Origin: Sphingobacteriaceae bacterium
GTDB taxonomy: Bacteria; Bacteroidota; Bacteroidia; B-17B0; Aurantibacillaceae
Assembly: GCA_002319075.1 (NCBI GenBank)
Contig: NVQB01000001.1
Location: forward strand, 1,612,001 to 1,676,000
Direction of reading: 5' to 3'
DNA: 64,000 bases
Each line of letters begins with the position of its first letter. Position 1 is the first letter of the stretch. The position numbers were made by a program, and so were the translations under genes. Of this stretch, positions 1-50,296 are shown piece after piece. The notes under the pieces were generated by a model. The model ran no database searches and was not told the origin of the DNA. It was given only the letters and a program-made list of their open reading frames with translations.

Positions 1-267
1 ATAACGTTAGCCAACCAGGTAATAGAGAAACTTGAGCGCAAAAATAAATGGAGTATTGACGAGAAAAACTCAAACACTTTATTTATAAAAGACATCCGTG
101 AGGGAGAAGTACCGGGAACGCACATTATGAAATACCAATCAGACATTGATGATATTGAGATTATGCATAAAGCTCACAACCGTAAAGGGTTTGCCCTGGG
201 CGCGGTGATAGCAGCAGAATTTCTGAAGGGTAAAAAGGGGATTTATACGATGAGCGATATCATATGA
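1..267 (+). CDS. dapB: 4-hydroxy-tetrahydrodipicolinate reductase, C-terminal part
   Basis: The reading frame is open from the first base of the window and ends at TGA 265-267, giving the last 88 residues. The segment with HNRKGFALGAVIAAEFLKGK followed by KGIYTMSDII is the typical C-terminus of DapB, the NAD(P)H-dependent reductase of the diaminopimelate/lysine pathway. This part of DapB carries the tetramerisation and substrate-binding C-terminal domain; the nucleotide-binding half lies left of the window. The stop codon overlaps an ATG at 264-266 (ATGA) that opens into the repeat region downstream. The 5' end is missing because of the window edge, not because the gene is damaged. Confidence 0.88.
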   Translation: MTLANQVIEKLERKNKWSIDEKNSNTLFIKDIREGEVPGTHIMKYQSDIDDIEIMHKAHNRKGFALGAVIAAEFLKGKKGIYTMSDII

Positions 268-352
268 TCTCGACTACGCTCGATCTGACATCAACTACGC
301 TCGATCTGACATCGACTACGCTCGATCTGACATCAACTACGCTCGATCTGAC
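268..352. repeat. Tandem repeat array 1, four copies of 21 bp
   Basis: Four consecutive 21-bp copies with period 21 (copies 2-4 begin at 290, 311 and 332). On the minus strand the unit reads TGTCAGATCGAGCGTAGTCG plus one base. The only difference among copies is G/A in the TCGAC/TCAAC part. The unit is the reverse complement of the core of the 27-bp unit in the neighbouring array, lacking a hexamer (AGAACA on the plus strand of array 2). The two arrays are therefore the same element in opposite orientations. The array starts directly after the dapB stop codon. Confidence 0.92.
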
Positions 353-353
353 A

Positions 354-765
354 AGAACAATGTCAGTTCAAGCGCCGTCGAGAACAATGTCAGTTCGAGC
401 GAAGTCGAGAACAATGTCAGTTCGAGCGAAGTCGAGAACAATGTCAGTTCAAGCGCAGTCAAGAACAATGTCAGTTCGAGCGAAGTCGAGAACAATGTCA
501 GTTCAAGCGCAGTCGAGAACAATGTCAGTTCAAGCGCCGTCAAGAACAATGTCAGTTCGAGCGAAGTCGAGAACAATGTCAGTTCAAGCGAAGTCGAGAA
601 CAATGTCAGTTCAAGCGCCGTCGAGAACAATGTCAGTTCAAGCGCAGTCGAGAACAATGTCAGTTCGAGCGAAGTCGAGAACAATGTCAGTTCAAGCGCC
701 GTCGAGAACAATGTCAGTTCGAGCGAAGTCGAGAACAATGTCAGTTCGAGCGTAGTCGAGAACAA
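354..765. repeat. Tandem repeat array 2, fifteen copies of 27 bp
   Basis: Fifteen contiguous 27-bp units (354-758) plus a 7-bp partial copy, without spacers. The core reads TGTCAGTTCGAGCGAAGTCG followed by AGAACAA. Copies differ at a few fixed sites only: G/A in TTCGAG/TTCAAG, AA, CC or CA in GCGAAG/GCGCCG/GCGCAG, and G/A in GTCGAG/GTCAAG. The last copy carries GCGTAG, the variant found in all copies of array 1. Because 27 is a multiple of three the array is open in one frame on both strands (264-755 plus, 337-828 minus); I regard these as by-products of the repeat rather than proven genes. The array ends 3 bp before the start codon of the next gene. Similar TCGAG..GTCGAG intergenic elements are, to my recollection, common in Bacteroidota; no search was run. 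Confidence 0.93.
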
Positions 766-768
766 CCT

Positions 769-1116
769 ATGGCCTATCACTGGATCCGCATATTCGAAAA
801 CCAAAAAGATTTTGAAAACTACATTCAACCTAACAACTTTGTTGTGTTTGAATTAAGGGGTGAAAAAATCTGTATCACCAGAACTGATAAAGGTTTTTTT
901 GCCGTGCAGGAAAAATGCCCGCACAACGGCGCCAGCTTAAGTAAAGGCTTTTGCACAAAAGAAAATGAAATTGTTTGTCCGCTTCATCGCTACTCTTTCG
1001 ATCTCAAAACAGGAAAGTCTACCTCCGGGGGAGGCTACGGGCTAAAGACCTATCCCATCGAACTAAAAAATGATGGGGTATATGTTGGCATACAAGCTAA
1101 ATGGTGGGAGGCGTAA
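769..1116 (+). CDS. Rieske (2Fe-2S) domain protein
   Basis: A 115-residue protein consisting almost entirely of one Rieske domain. The two cluster-binding motifs are visible: C50-P-H52-N-G and C70-P-L-H73, the pattern of a 2Fe-2S cluster held by two Cys and two His. Small soluble proteins of this type act as ferredoxins or as electron-transfer or regulatory subunits (nitrite reductase small subunit-like, or oxygenase ferredoxins); the partner is not evident here. No signal peptide or membrane segment is seen, so it should be cytoplasmic. The start ATG at 769 lies 3 bp after the end of the repeat array, so any leader or ribosome-binding sequence would consist of repeat DNA. The stop lies 5 bp from the end of the convergent glycoside hydrolase gene. 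Confidence 0.85.
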   Translation: MAYHWIRIFENQKDFENYIQPNNFVVFELRGEKICITRTDKGFFAVQEKCPHNGASLSKGFCTKENEIVCPLHRYSFDLKTGKSTSGGGYGLKTYPIELKNDGVYVGIQAKWWEA

Positions 1117-1121
1117 AACCC

Positions 1122-2885
1122 TTATTCGCTAGACTTCACTACTACTCTCCTTGAGCTACCCATCATAAGAAAATAAACTCCGTTTGGAATTTCTTTTGTA
1201 TTGATTGTATTTTTTTGGGTTCTTGTTTTCAGAGAATAAATTTCAATACCAAGGCTATTTGTAATTCGTATTTCTTCCTCTTTCGTCAAGGGATTTTGAA
1301 AATCCACATGCAACGTGCCTGTGTTAGGATTAGGATACACGGCAACACTAGCATCAGAGTCGTTGATGCTTTTTATCCCGACAGTAGTAAGCGTTGTCGG
1401 TGGCACCGTTGTAGTATCAACAGGATTAGTGTTAGTATCTGGCAGAGTAACATGTTTCATTTTCAATACATTGATAGAATGCGGACTTAAATTTACTTTT
1501 AAAACATTTCCTGAAATACTTACACTACCAGTGGGATAAGTAATAACGGGGATTTTATCAGCCGGAGAACTTCCACTCAGACGTACATGTGATAAAGAAA
1601 AATTAGGTTGACTCAGAGCTGGAAAATTGTTGACAGTTACAGTTGCCGTTCGCGGTTGATTATCTTTATTAATAAGAAATATATTCAGACTATCTCCCGA
1701 ACTATCTCTCACTGCAAAAGAATTCACATAGTTTCCATTCGTAGTTGAAACCATTTTTTCTAACATATTGTTACCCCACATAGAAAGAGCTTTGCCTGTA
1801 GCATTTAAACCTCCGTTCGCATCCACGGCGTCAAATACATCCTGAGGCGCAGTCACATTGTTTACCCAACGTGTATTCCACAAATAAGCATCCTCTACTC
1901 TGCTAATTTTCATTTGATCTCCGAACATTTGAAAATTTACAATGGCGTGTCCCAGGTCGTTATTCTGCGGCCAGGTATAAGCCCAATCAATAGCATTGTA
2001 TTCTGTAACAATTATACGAATGTTTGTATTGCTTACCGAACTAAGAATAGAATTTATTTCTGACACCAGGTTAGGATTTCCCGTTCTGTATGTATCGTAA
2101 CCGTTAGTCCAGTTATAAATGGGATAGTTACTTACAGCTATAGCATCTATGTAAGCTCCTGCAATACTTATCAGTGTATCAATCCAGGCACCTGACTTAG
2201 CATTGGCTACGACAGAAATTGTAGGATCTATTGCTTTCATGGCCTGAGAAAATTGTATCACATCGTGAGCATATTCTGATGCTGTGGAGGGAGCATCGTA
2301 GGCAGCTGAATTAAAACTTTCATTTCCTATAACCCAGTTTTTAATCTTATACGCATGCGTGATGTTGGCGTATTTAACCCATTCTGCTGCATTCGTAATT
2401 AAACTTGTGAGTGTTGGCGCTGCAGTGCAAAATGTATTGTACTGTGCATCGCCGGCAACCACTATCAAAGGCCTTGCGTGTGTATTTTGGCAAACAAGCA
2501 TAAATTCATCGAAGTCCATAGTTGAACTCAAAGGCGTTAGATAGTTAGAAGAAAATGCAGGATCGTTATTTGGCCAGTTACAATTTCCCTGCGTAGCAAA
2601 ATGTGGGTTTACACTCGTATAAGGCGGTACAGACCATAAATAATTATCCGCTTTCTCTCCTCCCGGAAATCTAAGACCTCCAACATTCATCTCTTTAAGT
2701 GACTGTTGCAGCGGAATAGCGGGATTCAGATGGGTATCATCGTCCATAAGATAATTGAGATTTATTCCGGCTGGATTGTGATCAAATGTTCTAATGACCG
2801 AACCAGCATTTACCTGGATTACCTGAGCACGAGACGCCGAACAAAAAAGGAAGGCCGCTAAAAATGAGAAAACCAGGTTTTTCAT
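1122..2885 (-). CDS. T9SS-exported clan GH-A glycoside hydrolase-like protein
   Basis: A 587-residue protein. A signal peptide spans about residues 1-20 (cleavage near SRA-Q). The segment LRFPGGEKADNYLW (71-84) resembles the LRYPGG..W segment of GH51 arabinofuranosidases. GNE (187-189) fits the clan GH-A acid/base and TEYN (294-297) the nucleophile glutamate on a later strand. A beta-domain follows. The C-terminal 80 residues start near VAVYPNPNTG and form a type A T9SS sorting domain ending in VVVKSSE, so the protein should be exported across the outer membrane and anchored or released. The substrate is not determined; a GH51/GH30/GH79-like fold is inference from motifs. It lies 20 bp downstream of the permease gene on the same strand and may be co-transcribed with it. 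Confidence 0.72.
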   Translation of the reverse strand: MKNLVFSFLAAFLFCSASRAQVIQVNAGSVIRTFDHNPAGINLNYLMDDDTHLNPAIPLQQSLKEMNVGGLRFPGGEKADNYLWSVPPYTSVNPHFATQGNCNWPNNDPAFSSNYLTPLSSTMDFDEFMLVCQNTHARPLIVVAGDAQYNTFCTAAPTLTSLITNAAEWVKYANITHAYKIKNWVIGNESFNSAAYDAPSTASEYAHDVIQFSQAMKAIDPTISVVANAKSGAWIDTLISIAGAYIDAIAVSNYPIYNWTNGYDTYRTGNPNLVSEINSILSSVSNTNIRIIVTEYNAIDWAYTWPQNNDLGHAIVNFQMFGDQMKISRVEDAYLWNTRWVNNVTAPQDVFDAVDANGGLNATGKALSMWGNNMLEKMVSTTNGNYVNSFAVRDSSGDSLNIFLINKDNQPRTATVTVNNFPALSQPNFSLSHVRLSGSSPADKIPVITYPTGSVSISGNVLKVNLSPHSINVLKMKHVTLPDTNTNPVDTTTVPPTTLTTVGIKSINDSDASVAVYPNPNTGTLHVDFQNPLTKEEEIRITNSLGIEIYSLKTRTQKNTINTKEIPNGVYFLMMGSSRRVVVKSSE

Positions 2886-2905
2886 TTTATTAAGTTAAAT
2901 AAAAT

Positions 2906-4120
2906 TTATTTAAATCCTACCAAATCGGTTTTTGTAAAAACCCTCACTGGATACAACGCTGCGAAAAAACCGATAAACATAATGAGTCCTAAGATCCATA
3001 CAAAATCTTTTAATTGTAATTCGATTGGATAGTATGGTACAATAAACTCACTTCCAAAAGTAACAAGATGAAACTTCATCTGAAGCACGCAAATTAAAAG
3101 TCCCAAAGCAAGTCCGATAAAAGCTCCTATGCCACTGATAAGAAAGGCTTCCCGCATAAAAATGCTGCGTATTAAACCTAAATCAGCTCCCATACTGTGT
3201 AACGTTCTTATGTCTTTTCGTTTTTCAATAATTAACATGGTAAGCGCACCAATAATATTAAAGGTGGCTATAACCAAAATAAACGCGAGAATAATAAACG
3301 TTGCCAGCTTTTCAGTTTCCAAAGCTTTAAAAAGCACATCGTTGAGCTGATACCTGTTTTTAACTACAAAATCTGGGCCTAGTTTTTTTTCTAATTGCTC
3401 CTTTACCTGATTAACACTCGATTGCTCACAGCTTAGTTCCAAAGCACTTACTTTATCAGGCAGATCAAATAAATCGCGGGCTGTTTTTAAACTCACAAAG
3501 GCATACTCATTATCGAGTTCATCATTCAAAGAAAAAACTCCTGATGGGATGCAATAAAGCTGATTTAAATTATCATCTGGAATCAAGCTGGTTTCTTTAC
3601 CCTTTAAAGGACTGTAGAGCGTTAATTCATTTACAAAAACATGTAAATTAATATTGAGCTGTCTCGCAACACCACGGCCTAATAAAATAGTTTTTGAACC
3701 AGCATCGTTTAAACCATAATTCCCATCAATTACAGAATCAATCTTTGCAATCTTATTAAAATTACTATCTACTCCTTTAATGGTAACAAGAGCCTGCTTA
3801 TCAATATTTTTAATAAGTATTTTATCGCTCAGACTTAATGAGATGAGCTTAACCCCTTCAATAGATTTTATTTCAGCTACTAATTTATCAGACGCTTCAA
3901 AATATTTTCCCTTAGCCGCAGTAATTCGAATATCTGGTTCAACAGTGTTGTAGAGATTTGCAACAACGCTGGTGAGTCCGTTCATAGCTGAAAGAATCAC
4001 AATGAGGGCGCCTGTTGTTACGGCAATAGCTCCAATGCTAATCCAGCTAATTATATTAATGGCATTGTTTGATTTTTTAGAAACCAGGTAACGCTTAGCT
4101 ATGTAAAAGGAAAAAGACAT
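2906..4120 (-). CDS. LolC/LolE-type ABC permease (FtsX family)
   Basis: A 404-residue inner-membrane protein with the FtsX/MacB topology: one N-terminal membrane segment (about 20-45, after FYIAKRYLVSKKSNNAINII), a large periplasmic domain (about 46-270), and three C-terminal membrane segments (about 275-400). The N-terminal RYL..K...NAINIIS pattern is that of lipoprotein-releasing permeases LolC/LolE. In Gram-negative bacteria this complex, with the LolD ATPase, extracts lipoproteins from the inner membrane for delivery to the outer membrane. No LolD gene is adjacent. The gene follows rbfA after a 124-bp gap and precedes the hydrolase gene by 20 bp. The rbfA-permease neighbourhood is, as far as I recall, common in Bacteroidota. 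Confidence 0.82.
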   Translation of the reverse strand: MSFSFYIAKRYLVSKKSNNAINIISWISIGAIAVTTGALIVILSAMNGLTSVVANLYNTVEPDIRITAAKGKYFEASDKLVAEIKSIEGVKLISLSLSDKILIKNIDKQALVTIKGVDSNFNKIAKIDSVIDGNYGLNDAGSKTILLGRGVARQLNINLHVFVNELTLYSPLKGKETSLIPDDNLNQLYCIPSGVFSLNDELDNEYAFVSLKTARDLFDLPDKVSALELSCEQSSVNQVKEQLEKKLGPDFVVKNRYQLNDVLFKALETEKLATFIILAFILVIATFNIIGALTMLIIEKRKDIRTLHSMGADLGLIRSIFMREAFLISGIGAFIGLALGLLICVLQMKFHLVTFGSEFIVPYYPIELQLKDFVWILGLIMFIGFFAALYPVRVFTKTDLVGFK

Positions 4121-4678: not shown

Positions 4679-6553
4679 ATGATCAAACTATTCTCGGTTT
4701 TTAAATACATACAAGGGTATTGGAAATATGCTGGATGGAATATTGGGTTTAATGTTTTATTCTCTGTTTTTTCTGTATTTTCTATCACGCTAATCATTCC
4801 TTTTCTGGATCTTCTTTTTGAGAAAGACGCCTCAAAATACAATGAGTATGTAAGTAATTTTAGTGCGGGTACGCCCCAGCTGAGTATAGCGTATTTAAAA
4901 GGATGGTTCTACGCTACCATGTCTAACCTGATCGTGAAAGACGGACTTGAACCCGATCAACTCATTAAAGGAAAAATGGAAGCTTTGATTTTAATTTGCG
5001 TGTCAATTGTTATTCTTACTCTTTTAAAAAATGTTTGTCGTTACATGGCCATGTTTTACCTGGCTCCTATACGAAATGGCGTTGTAAGAGACCTACGCAA
5101 CAAAATGTATAACAAAGCACTGGCTTTATCTCTTTCTTATTACAGCGACGAAAGGAAGGGAGACATTATGAGCAGGATGACAACCGACGTTATCGAAATA
5201 GAATGGAGCATTATGCAAACCCTTGAAATGGTTTTTCGCGAACCACTCATCATCATTATTTCTTTAGCCATGCTAATTGGTATTAGTCCTTATTTAACGC
5301 TTTACGTTTTTCTGTTGTTGCCTGTAGCCGGTATAATCATTGGTCTTGTAAACCGTTCCTTAAAAAGAAATTCTGCTCTTGGTAAAACCTTTTTAGGAAG
5401 TTTGTTTAACATGATGGAAGAAACTTTGGGAGGATTAAAAATCATTAAAGCTTTCACAGGCGAATCCTACCTGAAAAATAAATTCGAAAACATTAACCAG
5501 GAGTATTATAAATTACAGGTAAATGTTTACAGAAGAACAGATCTTGGATCACCCTTAAGTGAAACCATTGTCATTGCTATCTTAATGGTGATTTTATTCA
5601 TAGGTGGCGGTATGGCGCTTTATAGCAAGGGCCTCACTTCTGCCGAATTTATTGGGTATTTCGCAGTTGCCTCGCAAATTTTAGCGCCGATCAAACAAAT
5701 TACACAAGCTTATAATAACATCCAAAAAGGACTTGCATCAGAAGAGCGTATTGAGAAAATTTTACATGCGGAAGTCTCTATCAAAAATGCTCTCAATGCA
5801 AAAAGCATAAGTTCTTTCGATACTAAAATTGAATTTAAAGATGTTTCTTTCGCTTATATTAAAGGAGATGAAGGCTATATTTTAAAAAACATAAATCTTG
5901 GCATTGCAAAAGGTAAAACCATTGCATTGGTTGGGCAGAGCGGCAGTGGGAAAACTACCCTTGCCGACATGATTCCCCGCTTTTATGACACAGATCTTGG
6001 CGAGATTTTAATTGATGGAGTGCCAGTAAAACAAATCGACATTGACAGCCTTAGAAAACAAATAGGGATTGTGACGCAGGAAAGTATTTTATTTAACGAT
6101 ACCATTTTAAATAATATTGCTTTTGGCATTGATCATGCAGACGAAGCTGCAGTTATAGCAGCTGCCAAAATAGCTAACGCACATGATTTTATTTTACAAC
6201 AGCCAAATGGGTATCAAACCAATGTAGGCGACAGAGGAGGCAAACTCAGTGGTGGACAAAGACAAAGATTAAGCATTGCCAGAGCGATACTTAAAAATCC
6301 ACCCATACTTATTTTGGACGAGGCTACCTCAGCACTGGATACAGAAAGTGAAAGACTGGTTCAGGATGCTTTAAGCAATTTAATGAAAAACCGTACCAGC
6401 ATAGTCATAGCGCACCGTTTATCAACGATTGCAAATGCGGATGAAATAATCGTGATGCACAAAGGAGAAATTATAGAGCGAGGAAATCACAGCACACTCA
6501 TTGCGCTTAACGGTACCTACAAAAAACTTTGCGACATGCAGAGTTTCAAATAA
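4679..6553 (+). CDS. MsbA-type ABC exporter (fused membrane and ATPase domains)
   Basis: A 624-residue half-transporter. The N-terminal ABC-transporter type 1 membrane domain (about 1-330) has six hydrophobic segments; the ATPase domain follows. Walker A GQSGSGKTT lies near residue 419, the signature LSGGQRQR near 523, Walker B ILILDEATSALD near 543, and the switch histidine in IVIAHRLST after it. The layout is that of MsbA/LmrA lipid or drug exporters working as homodimers in the inner membrane; lipid A-core flipping is the likeliest role, but the substrate is not shown. The start is the ATG at 4679; no upstream in-frame ATG is near. Transcribed divergently from rbfA. No clear terminator follows. 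Confidence 0.88.
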   Translation: MIKLFSVFKYIQGYWKYAGWNIGFNVLFSVFSVFSITLIIPFLDLLFEKDASKYNEYVSNFSAGTPQLSIAYLKGWFYATMSNLIVKDGLEPDQLIKGKMEALILICVSIVILTLLKNVCRYMAMFYLAPIRNGVVRDLRNKMYNKALALSLSYYSDERKGDIMSRMTTDVIEIEWSIMQTLEMVFREPLIIIISLAMLIGISPYLTLYVFLLLPVAGIIIGLVNRSLKRNSALGKTFLGSLFNMMEETLGGLKIIKAFTGESYLKNKFENINQEYYKLQVNVYRRTDLGSPLSETIVIAILMVILFIGGGMALYSKGLTSAEFIGYFAVASQILAPIKQITQAYNNIQKGLASEERIEKILHAEVSIKNALNAKSISSFDTKIEFKDVSFAYIKGDEGYILKNINLGIAKGKTIALVGQSGSGKTTLADMIPRFYDTDLGEILIDGVPVKQIDIDSLRKQIGIVTQESILFNDTILNNIAFGIDHADEAAVIAAAKIANAHDFILQQPNGYQTNVGDRGGKLSGGQRQRLSIARAILKNPPILILDEATSALDTESERLVQDALSNLMKNRTSIVIAHRLSTIANADEIIVMHKGEIIERGNHSTLIALNGTYKKLCDMQSFK

Positions 6554-6556
6554 AAA

Positions 6557-6656
6557 CCACACAGGGCACTAAAGGCATTTAGAAAGCACTTAACTTTTCG
6601 GGTTGTCTGCCGTTCATTGTCTTTGTGAACCTCAGTCATCTTAGTGTCTTAGTGGC
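6557..6656. repeat. Degenerate inverted intergenic repeat (CACTAAG type)
   Basis: The 184-bp gap between the exporter and rsmI contains a left arm rich in CACTAAAG-like words (6557-6589) and a right arm with TTAGTGTCTTAGTGGC (6640-6655) in the opposite orientation. The arms are clearly related but heavily diverged. They resemble intergenic elements built from the CACTAAG heptamer and its complement CTTAGTG. No open reading frame of note lies in the gap. Confidence 0.45.
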
Positions 6657-6737
6657 AAAAAGCCATTAACAGCCGGGTATCAATAACTCTTCCGGCATAA
6701 GTTTCGCATAGAAAATTATATCCAGTAACTTCAATGA

Positions 6738-7445
6738 ATGAGCGGACAATTATTTATAGTTCCAACCCCTATTGGTAATCTTGAAGATATTACTTTAAGA
6801 GCCATTAATGTATTGAAGTCTGCAGACCTTATTTTAGCGGAAGACACACGAACCTCTTCTTTTTTACTGAAGCATTTGCAGATTGAAAAGCCGTTAAAAT
6901 CTTATCACCAGCACAACGAACATAAAATCGTAGAAGAGTTAGTGTCTTCTTTAAATTCAGGAAAAAATATCGCCCTGATTTCTGACGCAGGTACTCCTGG
7001 AATTTCAGATCCGGGCTTCCTTTTAATTCGCGAAGCCATTGCTAACGGTGTTACCATTATTTCTTTACCAGGCGCCACCGCCTTTGTACCGGCACTTGTA
7101 AACAGCGGACTTCCCTGCAACGAGTTTAGTTTTTATGGTTTTCTTCCGCAAAAAAAAGGCAGACAAACACGTTTAAAATTACTGGCGTTGGAAGAAAAAA
7201 CCTTTATCGTTTACGAATCTCCGTTTAGGCTTGTAAAACTATTGCAGGAATTTAAAGAGCATTTGGGTGCGCAAAGGAAAGCCTCTGTGAGCCGCGAACT
7301 CACTAAAATGTTTGAAGAAACAAAACGCGGAACAGTGGAAGAGTTAATTGCTTTTTATTCTGCTAAAACTGTAAAGGGTGAGATTGTAGTAGTTGTTCAG
7401 GGAAATAAAAACCTGGAAGAAAACGAAGAAAACGATGTCGAATAA
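6738..7445 (+). CDS. rsmI: 16S rRNA (cytidine(1402)-2'-O)-methyltransferase
   Basis: A 235-residue SAM-dependent tetrapyrrole-methylase-fold enzyme. The N-terminus LFIVPTPIGNLEDITLRA is the family signature, followed by ILAEDTRTSSFLLKHL, the ISDAGTPGISDPG loop and SLPGATAFVPALVNSGLP. RsmI methylates the ribose of C1402 in the ribosomal P site. It is shorter than E. coli RsmI (about 286) because it lacks the extra C-terminal HTH domain, which is normal for many Bacteroidota. The start is the ATG at 6738; an ATG four bases upstream is out of frame. The 3' end overlaps the corA start by 11 bp, pointing to an operon with translational coupling. Confidence 0.92.
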   Translation: MSGQLFIVPTPIGNLEDITLRAINVLKSADLILAEDTRTSSFLLKHLQIEKPLKSYHQHNEHKIVEELVSSLNSGKNIALISDAGTPGISDPGFLLIREAIANGVTIISLPGATAFVPALVNSGLPCNEFSFYGFLPQKKGRQTRLKLLALEEKTFIVYESPFRLVKLLQEFKEHLGAQRKASVSRELTKMFEETKRGTVEELIAFYSAKTVKGEIVVVVQGNKNLEENEENDVE

Positions 7446-8484
7446 ATTCAGAGATATAGGGGCGCCACCGGGCACACTGGTTTACAATGGGAACGAAACA
7501 AGTGCCCAGGTTAAGATCACGCTTATTGAATACAATGAGTATGAATTTTTGGAGCGCGAATTTTACGATTTCCATGATTGTACAAAACATCTCAAGGATA
7601 ATATGGTCAAATGGATAAACGTAGAAGGTGTGCACGATATACAACTTGTTGAGAAAATTGGTAAGCTTTATGATATCCATCCCCTTACTTTAGAAGACAT
7701 AGTACATATTGACCAAAGACCCAAATTTGAAGATTACGAGCACTACGTGCTTGCCATCATGAAGATGATCTTTTACAACAAGGAAGAAGTTCATTCAGAA
7801 CAGCTTTCTATGATCCTGGTAAAAAACACGGTTATTTCTTTCCAGGAACCGCAAGGCGGCGATGCTTTTGATATTATCCGCAATCGCCTGCGACAAGCCA
7901 AAGGTCGCGTAAGGAAGCACGGGGCGGATTATTTATTTTATGCATTAATGGATGCTGTTGTAGATTACTATTTTTTTACAATCGAAAAAATAGGCGATAA
8001 GGTTGCCAAGATTGAGGAAGAAATTATAACCGAACCGAGGCAGGAATCGTTAATAGAACTCTATAAATTAAAACGTGAAGTGATCTTCCTGCGCAAACAG
8101 GTGTGGCCCCTGCGCGACATGCTAAGCAACTTACTGCGTTCTGAATCTGATTTTATTAGTCCCAATACACAATTATTCTTCCGCGATTTACAGGATCATA
8201 CCATGCGTATTATTGACACGGTAGAAAACTACAGAGACCTGTTAAGTGGTATCATGGATATTTACCTCAGCACAAATGCTAATAAAATGAACGAGGTCAT
8301 GAAGGTTTTAACCATCATGTCCAGCATTTTTATTCCTGTAACTTTTATTGCGGGTGTGTACGGGATGAACTTTGAGAACATGCCCGAATTAAAATCTCCT
8401 TACGGTTACGCAGCTGTTTGGATACTCATGCTGAGCGTAATGGGTGGACTGGTAATTTATTTTAAAAAGAAAAAGTGGATGTAA
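7435..8484 (+). CDS. corA: CorA-type magnesium/cobalt transporter
   Basis: A 349-residue member of the CorA/MIT family from the ATG at 7435; the frame is open further upstream but only within rsmI. The long N-terminal cytoplasmic domain (about 1-285) contains the helices that form the funnel. Two C-terminal membrane helices follow, with the diagnostic GMN motif at about residues 309-311 (VYGMNFENMPE) and a basic C-terminus (FKKKKWM). It forms a homopentameric Mg2+ (or Co2+/Ni2+) channel in the inner membrane. It overlaps the end of rsmI by 11 bp. No leader or M-box-like riboswitch was seen, which fits its position inside an operon. Confidence 0.92.
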   Translation: MSNKFRDIGAPPGTLVYNGNETSAQVKITLIEYNEYEFLEREFYDFHDCTKHLKDNMVKWINVEGVHDIQLVEKIGKLYDIHPLTLEDIVHIDQRPKFEDYEHYVLAIMKMIFYNKEEVHSEQLSMILVKNTVISFQEPQGGDAFDIIRNRLRQAKGRVRKHGADYLFYALMDAVVDYYFFTIEKIGDKVAKIEEEIITEPRQESLIELYKLKREVIFLRKQVWPLRDMLSNLLRSESDFISPNTQLFFRDLQDHTMRIIDTVENYRDLLSGIMDIYLSTNANKMNEVMKVLTIMSSIFIPVTFIAGVYGMNFENMPELKSPYGYAAVWILMLSVMGGLVIYFKKKKWM

Positions 8485-11339: not shown

Positions 11340-12440
11340 TTATCTGGACTTTTTTGCCGTTTTCTTCACCGCTTTTTTTACCACTTTTTTGGCTGCTTTC
11401 TTCACAGTCTTTTTAACTGCTTTTTTTGGCGCGACCTTTTTTACCGCTTTTTTAACTAGCGTTTTTTTAACCACTTTTTTGGCCATCTTTTTAGGTGGAG
11501 ATTTTTTTACGGCCTTTTTTGGCGCTAATTTCTTCACTCCTTTTTTTACGGCTTTTTTAGGAGAGACACGTATAGACTTTGTGACTGTTTTCTTAGCCGG
11601 AGTTTTTTTCACTGAGACGGCTTTGCTTTTTACCAGAGGTTTTTTGCTGGCAACGGCGGCCTGCTTACTGCTTGCGGCGGCCTGTCTGCTTGCCTTTGCA
11701 CTTTGTTTCTTTTCTTCCTCTTCTTCTGCTTCAGCCCGTTTAATAGCGTCAATTTCCAAAAGTAATTCTGGAGCGATATCGTCTGCCAACTCAAAATCCT
11801 GTATGGTAAGATCCAGATGTTCTAAATCTGTTTCTAATGAAGTAAGATCCATTTCAGCATTTAAAAAAACAATACGGTCTACTAAAGATTTAAAAATTTC
11901 ATCAATGGTTCCAATTCCACCTATCGAATGAAATTTACCTTGTTCGTTATAATAGTTTTTTAAAGGCAAAGTCTTGTTATTGTATTCCTGAATACGGCGA
12001 CGAATAACGGTTTCATCACGATCATCAGCCCTGCCACTGTCTTTGCCGCGTAGCAACAAACGTTTGGTAAGCTCTTCATCATCAACTTCCAACGCAAGCA
12101 TACCGCTGATACCTGTTCCTTTTTTCTGGAGCAAATCATCCAGGGCTACAGCTTGTGCCGCAGTTCTGGGAAAACCATCAAAAATAAATCCCTTTGCATG
12201 AGGGTTTTCGTCGAGTTTGGATTCTATCATACCTATTACGATATCATCGCCCACCAGTTCTCCTCTATCCATTATTTCCTTCGCCTTTTTACCAAGATTG
12301 GTACCACGCGCAATTTCTGAACGCAAAATATCTCCGGTGCTTAAATGCACCAGGCCATATTTACTGATCAGGTTTTCAGATTGTGTTCCCTTTCCTGCGC
12401 CAGGAGGGCCAAATAAAACAATGTTCAACATTTTTTCCAT
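11340..12440 (-). CDS. adk: Adenylate kinase with acidic linker and Lys/Ala-rich C-terminal tail
   Basis: A 366-residue protein, about 175 longer than an ordinary adenylate kinase. Residues 1-193 form a complete short-type Adk (ATP + AMP to 2 ADP): P-loop GPPGAGKGTQ (11-20), AMP-binding STGDILR (34-40), FDGFPRT (87-93) and LLLRGKDSGRADD (128-140); no zinc-finger LID is seen. Residues about 194-245 are acidic and end in a Glu run (EAEEEEE). Residues 246-366 are built of KKA, KKV, PKK and AVKK blocks, like bacterial histone H1-like tails, and should be disordered and positively charged. No stop or frame break separates the parts. The start may be the ATG at 12440 or at 12431 (MLNIVLFG). The gene starts 6 nt after the hpt stop. 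Confidence 0.9.
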   Translation of the reverse strand: MEKMLNIVLFGPPGAGKGTQSENLISKYGLVHLSTGDILRSEIARGTNLGKKAKEIMDRGELVGDDIVIGMIESKLDENPHAKGFIFDGFPRTAAQAVALDDLLQKKGTGISGMLALEVDDEELTKRLLLRGKDSGRADDRDETVIRRRIQEYNNKTLPLKNYYNEQGKFHSIGGIGTIDEIFKSLVDRIVFLNAEMDLTSLETDLEHLDLTIQDFELADDIAPELLLEIDAIKRAEAEEEEEKKQSAKASRQAAASSKQAAVASKKPLVKSKAVSVKKTPAKKTVTKSIRVSPKKAVKKGVKKLAPKKAVKKSPPKKMAKKVVKKTLVKKAVKKVAPKKAVKKTVKKAAKKVVKKAVKKTAKKSR

Positions 12441-49762: not shown

Positions 49763-50296
49763 TTAATCTTCTTTTTTCTTAGTTGTTGTTTTTTTAGCTG
49801 CTGCTTTTTTTGGAGCCGCTGCTTTTTTTGGAGCTGCTGCTTTTTTTGGAGCTGCTGCTTTTTTTGCTGGTTTTGCTTCAGTAACTGTTGTTTCAGTTTC
49901 TGCTGCTACCGCTACAGGTTTGTTTCTTGAGCCCTGAACACGAACAACGCGCTCTGCTTTTAATTCTTCCTGTAATTTGTCGCCTTTAGCTAACACACCC
50001 TGAATAAGGATTTGTGTAAAGCTTTGACGGTGATTATTCCATTTTTGATAGCCTTTACGACGTTTCTTTTTGAAAATGATCACTTTGTCACCTTTAACGT
50101 GACTGATTACTGTGGCTGCTACAACAGCGCCATCTACCGTAGGGTTTCCAACTGAAATTTTTCCGCCGTTATCCAAAAGGAGAACTTTGTCAAATTCAAT
50201 TTTAGCGCCCTCGTTAGCCTCTAGGCGGTGAACGTATACTTTGTTTCCACGTTCCACTTTAAATTGTTGCCCGGCTATTTCTACAATTGCGTACAT
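49763..50296 (-). CDS. rplU: 50S ribosomal protein L21 with Lys/Ala-rich C-terminal extension
   Basis: A 177-residue protein. The first 103 or so residues form a standard L21 ([54 protein letters not shown]). A 70-residue extension follows: an acidic/Thr-rich linker ([14 protein letters not shown]), then repeats of AAAPKK and a final TTTKKKED. The repeat part is encoded by near-perfect 18-bp units. Extensions of this kind on L21 are found in other Bacteroidota to my recollection. The tail resembles that on Adk in this window. First gene of rplU-rpmA. Confidence 0.95.
49799..49870. repeat. 18-bp tandem repeat within rplU
   Basis: Three 18-bp units (49799, 49817, 49835) plus a partial fourth, with the plus-strand pattern TGCTGCTTTTTTTGGAGC and one C/T difference. 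It encodes the AAPKKA repeats of the L21 tail and could expand or contract by slippage without breaking the frame. Confidence 0.85.

Follow-up and report, generated by a model that had tools for sequence, protein, structure and literature searches.

Facing tandem arrays of a TGTC-tagged, REP-like palindrome at a dapB stop codon in a Sphingobacteriaceae bacterium

The window (the whole 64,000-nt stretch of DNA analysed) carries two tandem arrays of one unit at 265–764, in opposite orientation and with their TGTC ends facing each other. The nearest genes are a dapB-like gene and a Rieske protein gene. TGTC is referred to below as the tag end of the unit and the opposite end as the untagged end. 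The features of the site are:

1–267, plus strand: 3′ end of a dapB-like gene (match G000:C1:1611560-1612264; TGA stop at 265–267)
265–290, minus strand: complete array 1 element (TGTC tag starting at 290; untagged end flush with the dapB stop)
291–353, minus strand: three more 21-bp copies of array 1, without the 3′ stem arm
354–360, no strand: 7-bp spacer between the facing TGTC tags
361–738, plus strand: fourteen 27-bp copies of array 2 with non-consensus loops (GCGAAG in 7, GCGCCG in 4, GCGCAG in 3)
739–764, plus strand: last (untagged-end) copy of array 2, with the canonical loop GCGTAG
264–755, plus strand: reading frame that stays open across both arrays (ATG overlapping the dapB stop as ATGA; TAG provided by the canonical last copy)
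769–1116, plus strand: Rieske [2Fe-2S] protein gene (Pfam PF00355, E = 2.1e-14)

Array 1 consists of four minus-strand copies at 21-bp spacing (265–353; tags starting at 290, 311, 332 and 353) and array 2 of fifteen plus-strand copies at 27-bp spacing (361–764; tags starting at 361, 388 and so on to 739). The core reported in a first-pass annotation matches 18 times in the window (≤3 mismatches; chance expectation 0), always within 271–758, on the minus strand four times and on the plus strand fourteen times, the fifteenth plus-strand copy being recovered with a looser pattern. Together with Tandem Repeats Finder (array 1: 273–353, period 21, 3.9 copies, 96% matches; array 2: 354–765, period 27, 15.3 copies, 92% matches, and also period 81), these matches confirm the annotated pair of oppositely oriented arrays. 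Its four 21-bp copies are present as four minus-strand copies, but the outermost one is complete at 26 bp (265–290) and overlaps the dapB stop codon. The two units are related as it had proposed, with the refinement that what the 21-bp unit lacks relative to the 27-bp one is the 3′ stem arm. As annotated, the loop GCGTAG is found in all four array 1 copies and in only one of the fifteen array 2 copies, the last. The stem arms differ between the arrays (AGATC vs AGTTC). No recombinase was seen beside the arrays, in agreement with the annotation, and Rfam gave two matches over window positions 1–3000, at E values of 0.4 and 0.68 and far under the gathering scores. Other short tandem repeats in the window, at 11348–11492 (12–36 bp) and 49774–49869 (18 bp), are perhaps coding repeats of lysine/alanine-rich proteins, to judge by their sequence.

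Starting with the tag, the element reads TGTCA-NN-TCGAGCG-N-AGTCGAGA-N'N', about 26 bp. When one terminal copy was taken from each of the 83 same-strand runs found in the genome, the two variable stem pairs were both Watson–Crick in 68 (mean 13.7 and maximum 28 in 20,000 shuffles), with arm combinations such as GT/AC, GA/TC, CT/AG, TT/AA, CA/TG and GG/CC. By nearest-neighbour rules the covarying stem has an energy of +0.4 (RNA) or +1.2 (DNA) kcal/mol and is thus not stable, and minimum-energy folds of single units were no better than those of shuffles; pairing is for these reasons deduced from covariation only. As sequence evidence, arm covariation speaks for a palindrome that is maintained and not for a strong free hairpin, and the cruciform that the first-pass annotation had thought the DNA might extrude is unsupported for single units. 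The large RNA hairpin in the same annotation is indeed predicted (264–768: −177.3 kcal/mol, z −5.9, array 1 pairing with array 2 copies), but such pairing is to be expected because the copies are inverted, and as a folding prediction it shows no function.

Across the 5.65-Mb genome the core matches 245 times at ≤3 mismatches (116 plus, 129 minus), compared with 2 and 0 for a reversed-pattern control. At least 345 element copies in 61 clusters were counted in 45 regions (588 kb) around the matches listed, while 14 other stretches (280 kb) contained one copy; the census is a lower bound, with the cluster at G000:C1:1985254-1985296 left out. This further cluster has AG arms (TGTCAAGTCGAG). Among the matches listed, copies grouped at gaps of ≤110 nt (≤70 nt in other genomes) form the 83 same-strand runs, namely 41 single elements, 6 pairs and 36 arrays of at least three (292 copies), with common copy spacings of 21–28, 34–35, 41–49, 56–59 and 80 nt. 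Only 13 of the 80 runs for which both neighbours were called fall within a called ORF of ≥70 codons. Tags-inside junctions (tags within 60 nt of each other) occur ten times in the census and tags-outside pairs (elements within 60 nt) five times; the dapB site is one of two tag-to-tag places where each partner is an array of four copies or more, the other being 4125988–4126285. The strand of the runs showed no replication bias when compared with sampled GC skew (14 plus and 19 minus at 0–2.4 Mb, where skew is mostly negative; 24 plus and 22 minus at 2.4–5.2 Mb, where it is mostly positive). At G000:C1:4203834-4205273 (L153, about 6334–7773) an ISL3-family insertion sequence (DDE_Tnp_ISL3, E = 2.7e-48; ends of GATCAGGCGCAAAA type) lies inside an element array, and arrays can therefore serve as IS targets.

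The arrays are polar. In 33 of the 36 arrays the untagged end bears a canonical copy, loop GCGTAG included (19.4 expected; none of 20,000 permutations came as high, p<1/20000), whereas the tag end does so in 9 of 36, which is below expectation (p = 5e-5 for summed mismatches). On average the last (untagged-end) copy has 0.22 mismatches and the next 0.69, after which the mean levels off at 1.0–1.3. Array 1 and the last array 2 copy thus have GCGTAG in common because both are preserved end copies. In other Bacteroidota, 25 of 30 arrays were informative, the untagged-end copy being the better one in 17, the worse one in 6 and no different in 2 (p = 0.00125 for the excess of change at the tag end; p = 0.048 for the excess of intact untagged ends). 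Polarity is strong in this genome and weaker in other Bacteroidota.

The untagged end is also the one that meets genes. It lies flush (−5..0) with a stop codon in 18 of the 83 runs and the tagged end in none (Fisher p = 2.7e-6); moving the boundary by 6–300 nt gave a mean of 0.73 and a maximum of 5 in 2000 trials. Gene ends were taken from open frames (minimum length 70, 80 or 100 codons) and not from annotation, the count of 18 referring to frames of ≥80 codons, and 16 of 83 being obtained with ≥100. Often the stop overlaps the arm by one or two bases (TA|GTTC, T|GATC) or directly precedes it (TAA|CTTC, TAG|GGTC). The other 65 runs show no such flush stop. Among 152 runs from other Bacteroidota the untagged end was flush in 12 and the tagged end in 1 (frames of ≥100 codons), in a set that includes near-duplicate species, two stretches seemingly from a genome of the same genus (G024) and a large mosaic (L188) contributing 2 of the 12 flush ends. 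At the two sites checked, dapB and a radical-SAM gene, the flush stop is the native one and the gene is not truncated. Since it so often lies exactly at gene stop codons, the repeat is more than random clutter.

Genomes of the same genus show the dapB site without the insertion. dapB was matched in 39 of 40 genomes and 30 stretches were compared, 29 of them from relatives, with up to 900 nt of sequence past the gene (only 257–625 nt in three). DapB ends at the homologous residue in all 29, and neither an element nor a half element follows the gene in any of them. A Rieske gene follows in 21 and was not found in 8; its YHW motif lies 8–71 nt past the dapB stop in 17 of the 21 and 104–431 nt past it in 4, compared with 510 nt here. 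Since the relatives have the same DapB C-terminus and no element, the dapB cluster is, by this comparison of sequences, a lineage-specific insertion at a native stop codon, and it is the dapB site that carries the argument. The radical-SAM gene, which adjoins the other double array, was matched in 31 of 40 genomes (30 stretches, of which 28 relatives were compared, one with only 50 nt past the stop, and one was unrecognised). It ends in QLSLF or variants of this in the 28 relatives, and no element or half element follows it in 27 of these within the available sequence. The exception, G047 (L290), has related palindromes from 27 nt past the stop, with the same TGTCANNTCGAG / TCGAGA arms and a longer inner stem-loop starting with TAG, so that this site is not wholly empty in the genus; by their sequence they are a long-loop variant of the element family.

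The element itself was found in 27 of the 40 genus genomes (≤1 mismatch; reversed control 0 throughout), at up to 53 copies elsewhere compared with 236 here. Among the matches listed, G042 has GCGGAG loops and G019 mainly GCGCAG and GCGAAG, and because these loops differ from that of the present genome the GCGTAG type seems, from loop sequences, to have spread within this lineage. The unit is thus scattered genome-wide and the array absent from relatives, which points to a largely lineage-specific expansion, an outcome that the first-pass annotation had set against its own reading. In a scan with one genome per species (84,980 species, possibly leaving out the present record), the exact two-copy tandem pattern occurred in 38 stretches, all 38 with Bacteroidota titles, including Flavobacterium, Arenibacter, Maribacter, Sphingobacteriaceae, Chitinophaga, Bacteroidales and Prevotella; viral contigs gave 0 exact tandem pairs. 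In Maribacter aquimaris (NZ_JABTCF010000003.1, L188, 2534–5562), about 3 kb hold 53 copies in mostly alternating orientation with a period near 111 bp, an arrangement that is, on sequence, a very large BIME-like mosaic.

The element has the broad features of a REP, being a palindrome in high copy number that is mostly intergenic and whose arms are kept complementary. CGTC-tagged REPs are described as 20–40 bp extragenic palindromes with an unpaired tag at one end, changed in many cases to TGTC or CCTC with complementary changes in the stem; they occur in five phyla including Bacteroidetes, form large clusters in Neisseriae and Wolbachia, and are given as having no known dedicated transposase (PMC3733652). 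The present consensus resembles them in beginning with a TGTC tag, a likeness taken from description only. As described in the same source, however, their first two stem positions are A-T, with stems of 8–9 bp, loops of 4–5 and a CCA-like tail, whereas in the present genome only 20 of 83 terminal copies have A-T as first stem pair, the second pair is variable and the tails depend on the locus. Their dimers are given there as predominantly tags-outside, with head-to-tail dimers negligible; the present genome has 36 head-to-tail arrays, and ten junctions of the type that the paper calls 'tags-inside', as at dapB, versus five tags-outside pairs. Because stem, tail and dimer rules differ, strict membership of the CGTC family is not established.

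Dispersed palindromes in paired and tandem clusters are likewise described for GTAG REPs, BIMEs and REPINs with RAYTs (REP-associated tyrosine transposases), including tandem REP and REPIN arrays in P. fluorescens SBW25 (PMC2817692, PMC3116915, PMC3733652). Unlike GTAG REPs as described in these papers, the element has another tag, a stop codon abuts its untagged end, and none lies beside the RAYT relative considered below. For E. coli, ribosome stalling is described at REPs that lie within 15 nt of stop codons (PMC12306157, citing earlier work). A palindrome directly past a stop codon is a likeness to these, but here it is flush (0–5 nt) and orientation-specific, and an effect on translation is hypothetical. 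By analogy, we would guess that in mRNA an element directly past the stop could act on translation termination or on the 3′ end of the transcript. Despite the differences, the element is a TGTC-tagged REP-like palindrome of Bacteroidota and works like a REP. Beyond related REP papers, no open-licence literature on this repeat itself was recognised, papers matching the core as text being unrelated by title.

The reading that we favour, and consider probable, is that the dispersed TGTC REP-like element came to form a tag-to-tag pair at the dapB stop and that each partner was then amplified in place. Two elements would have come to lie tag to tag through two insertions or the insertion of one pair, and each partner would have grown by local tandem duplication, through either slippage or unequal exchange, the duplicated unit being either whole (27 bp) or 3′-truncated (21 bp). 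The complete copy at the untagged end may have been regenerated or kept by selection while copies toward the tag end decayed. The separate amplification of the two arrays that the first-pass annotation had suggested is supported.

Mobilisation by a RAYT, as for REPs in proteobacteria, is unlikely on present evidence. Pfam Y1_Tnp gave no match in this genome at E 0.001; with E values of up to 10, a weak match was to a divergent RAYT relative of 206 aa (E = 5.9e-4, below the cut-off; NCBIfam NF047646 REP_Tyr_transpos, E = 1.9e-14, below its cut-off). The absence of a RAYT from the genome was accordingly dropped as a candidate finding, that weak match having led to the relative. Its gene (G000:C1:1102007-1102624; L247 / L249) encodes the motifs NHFH and YIHSNP, partly like those tabulated for subclass 2.6 in PMC6006769. 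Besides the existence of this one relative, RAYT mobilisation would fit the 20 of 40 genus genomes that encode it and hold more elements (Mann–Whitney p = 0.029). However, 7 to 53 copies occur in five of the 20 genomes that lack it, and dividing the genomes at 5 copies shows no significant association (Fisher p = 0.19). The gene in the present genome is also preceded by a different palindrome, AACCCTGTCAGGGTTTAAAACCCTGACAGGGTT, perhaps the cognate repeat of the relative itself, and no TGTC element was found in the stretch examined around it, so that the flanking of a RAYT gene by the element, a feature of RAYT-dependent REPs and REPINs, is absent here. Among genus stretches with the relative only 4 of 25 contain the element, never closer to the gene than about 400 nt. 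Y1_Tnp was found in 31 of 41 genomes, and 0 of 30 of these stretches inspected contain the element (≤2 substitutions).

As a more speculative proposal, to which we give a low probability, the element would have been spread by an orientation-specific machinery that targets gene ends and joins the untagged end at the stop codon. The variable arm would base-pair with the target, the arms thus suiting the stop of each locus, and arrays would grow from that end with the gene-end copy as master.

The duplication of one element, inversion of one copy in place and amplification of both, as proposed in the first-pass annotation, would account for a core and GCGTAG edge copies common to both arrays, and is nevertheless very unlikely. 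Tag-to-tag neighbours recur at the ten census junctions, both orientations are found genome-wide, and the arms of the two arrays differ as given above. With GCGTAG as the genome-wide consensus, kept at the untagged end of nearly all arrays, there is no need to invoke a recent inversion.

From its ATG, which overlaps the dapB stop as ATGA, the frame 264–755 runs as far as the canonical last copy and ends 13 nt short of the Rieske start. Tandem arrays between genes, placed at overlapping stop/start codons, are also seen in the MIRU minisatellites of mycobacteria, a likeness by description. Two features keep the frame open: each period is a multiple of three, and the loop TAG has been lost from all 14 inner array 2 copies. 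Its repeat peptide gave four Pfam matches, none above the curated cut-off, which look like low complexity, and its openness may be due to chance. We see little prospect for the idea of a translated bridge, in which the arrays would be retained because the frame keeps translation coupled from dapB to Rieske across the insertion. The two periods, the closeness of the YHW motif to the dapB stop in most relatives with a Rieske gene, and a TAG loss that is the largest among the 36 arrays would all suit such a bridge; against it, many copies of other arrays have lost TAG too (7/9, 7/11, 7/13 and 2/3), a founder mutation plus amplification accounts for much of the loss, and an equally long minus-strand frame is also open.

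An assembly artefact or collapsed repeat has a negligible probability: nothing specific pointing to one was found beyond the general difficulty of assembling tandem copy numbers, and a single 5.65-Mb contig holds 36 arrays that differ in period and variants, while other genomes, assembled independently, also carry this element in tandem.

REP elements are already known as a kind, and the new details are the stop-codon rule and the covariation of the stem arms. For this repeat, neither the stop-codon rule nor the polarity of the arrays was found in open-licence literature. With 36 arrays of differing period, one genome offers many histories of tandem growth side by side. An untagged end at the stop codon and decay away from that end make a testable system for the spread of REPs without a known transposase, and the same two rules bear on why REPs sit at gene ends.
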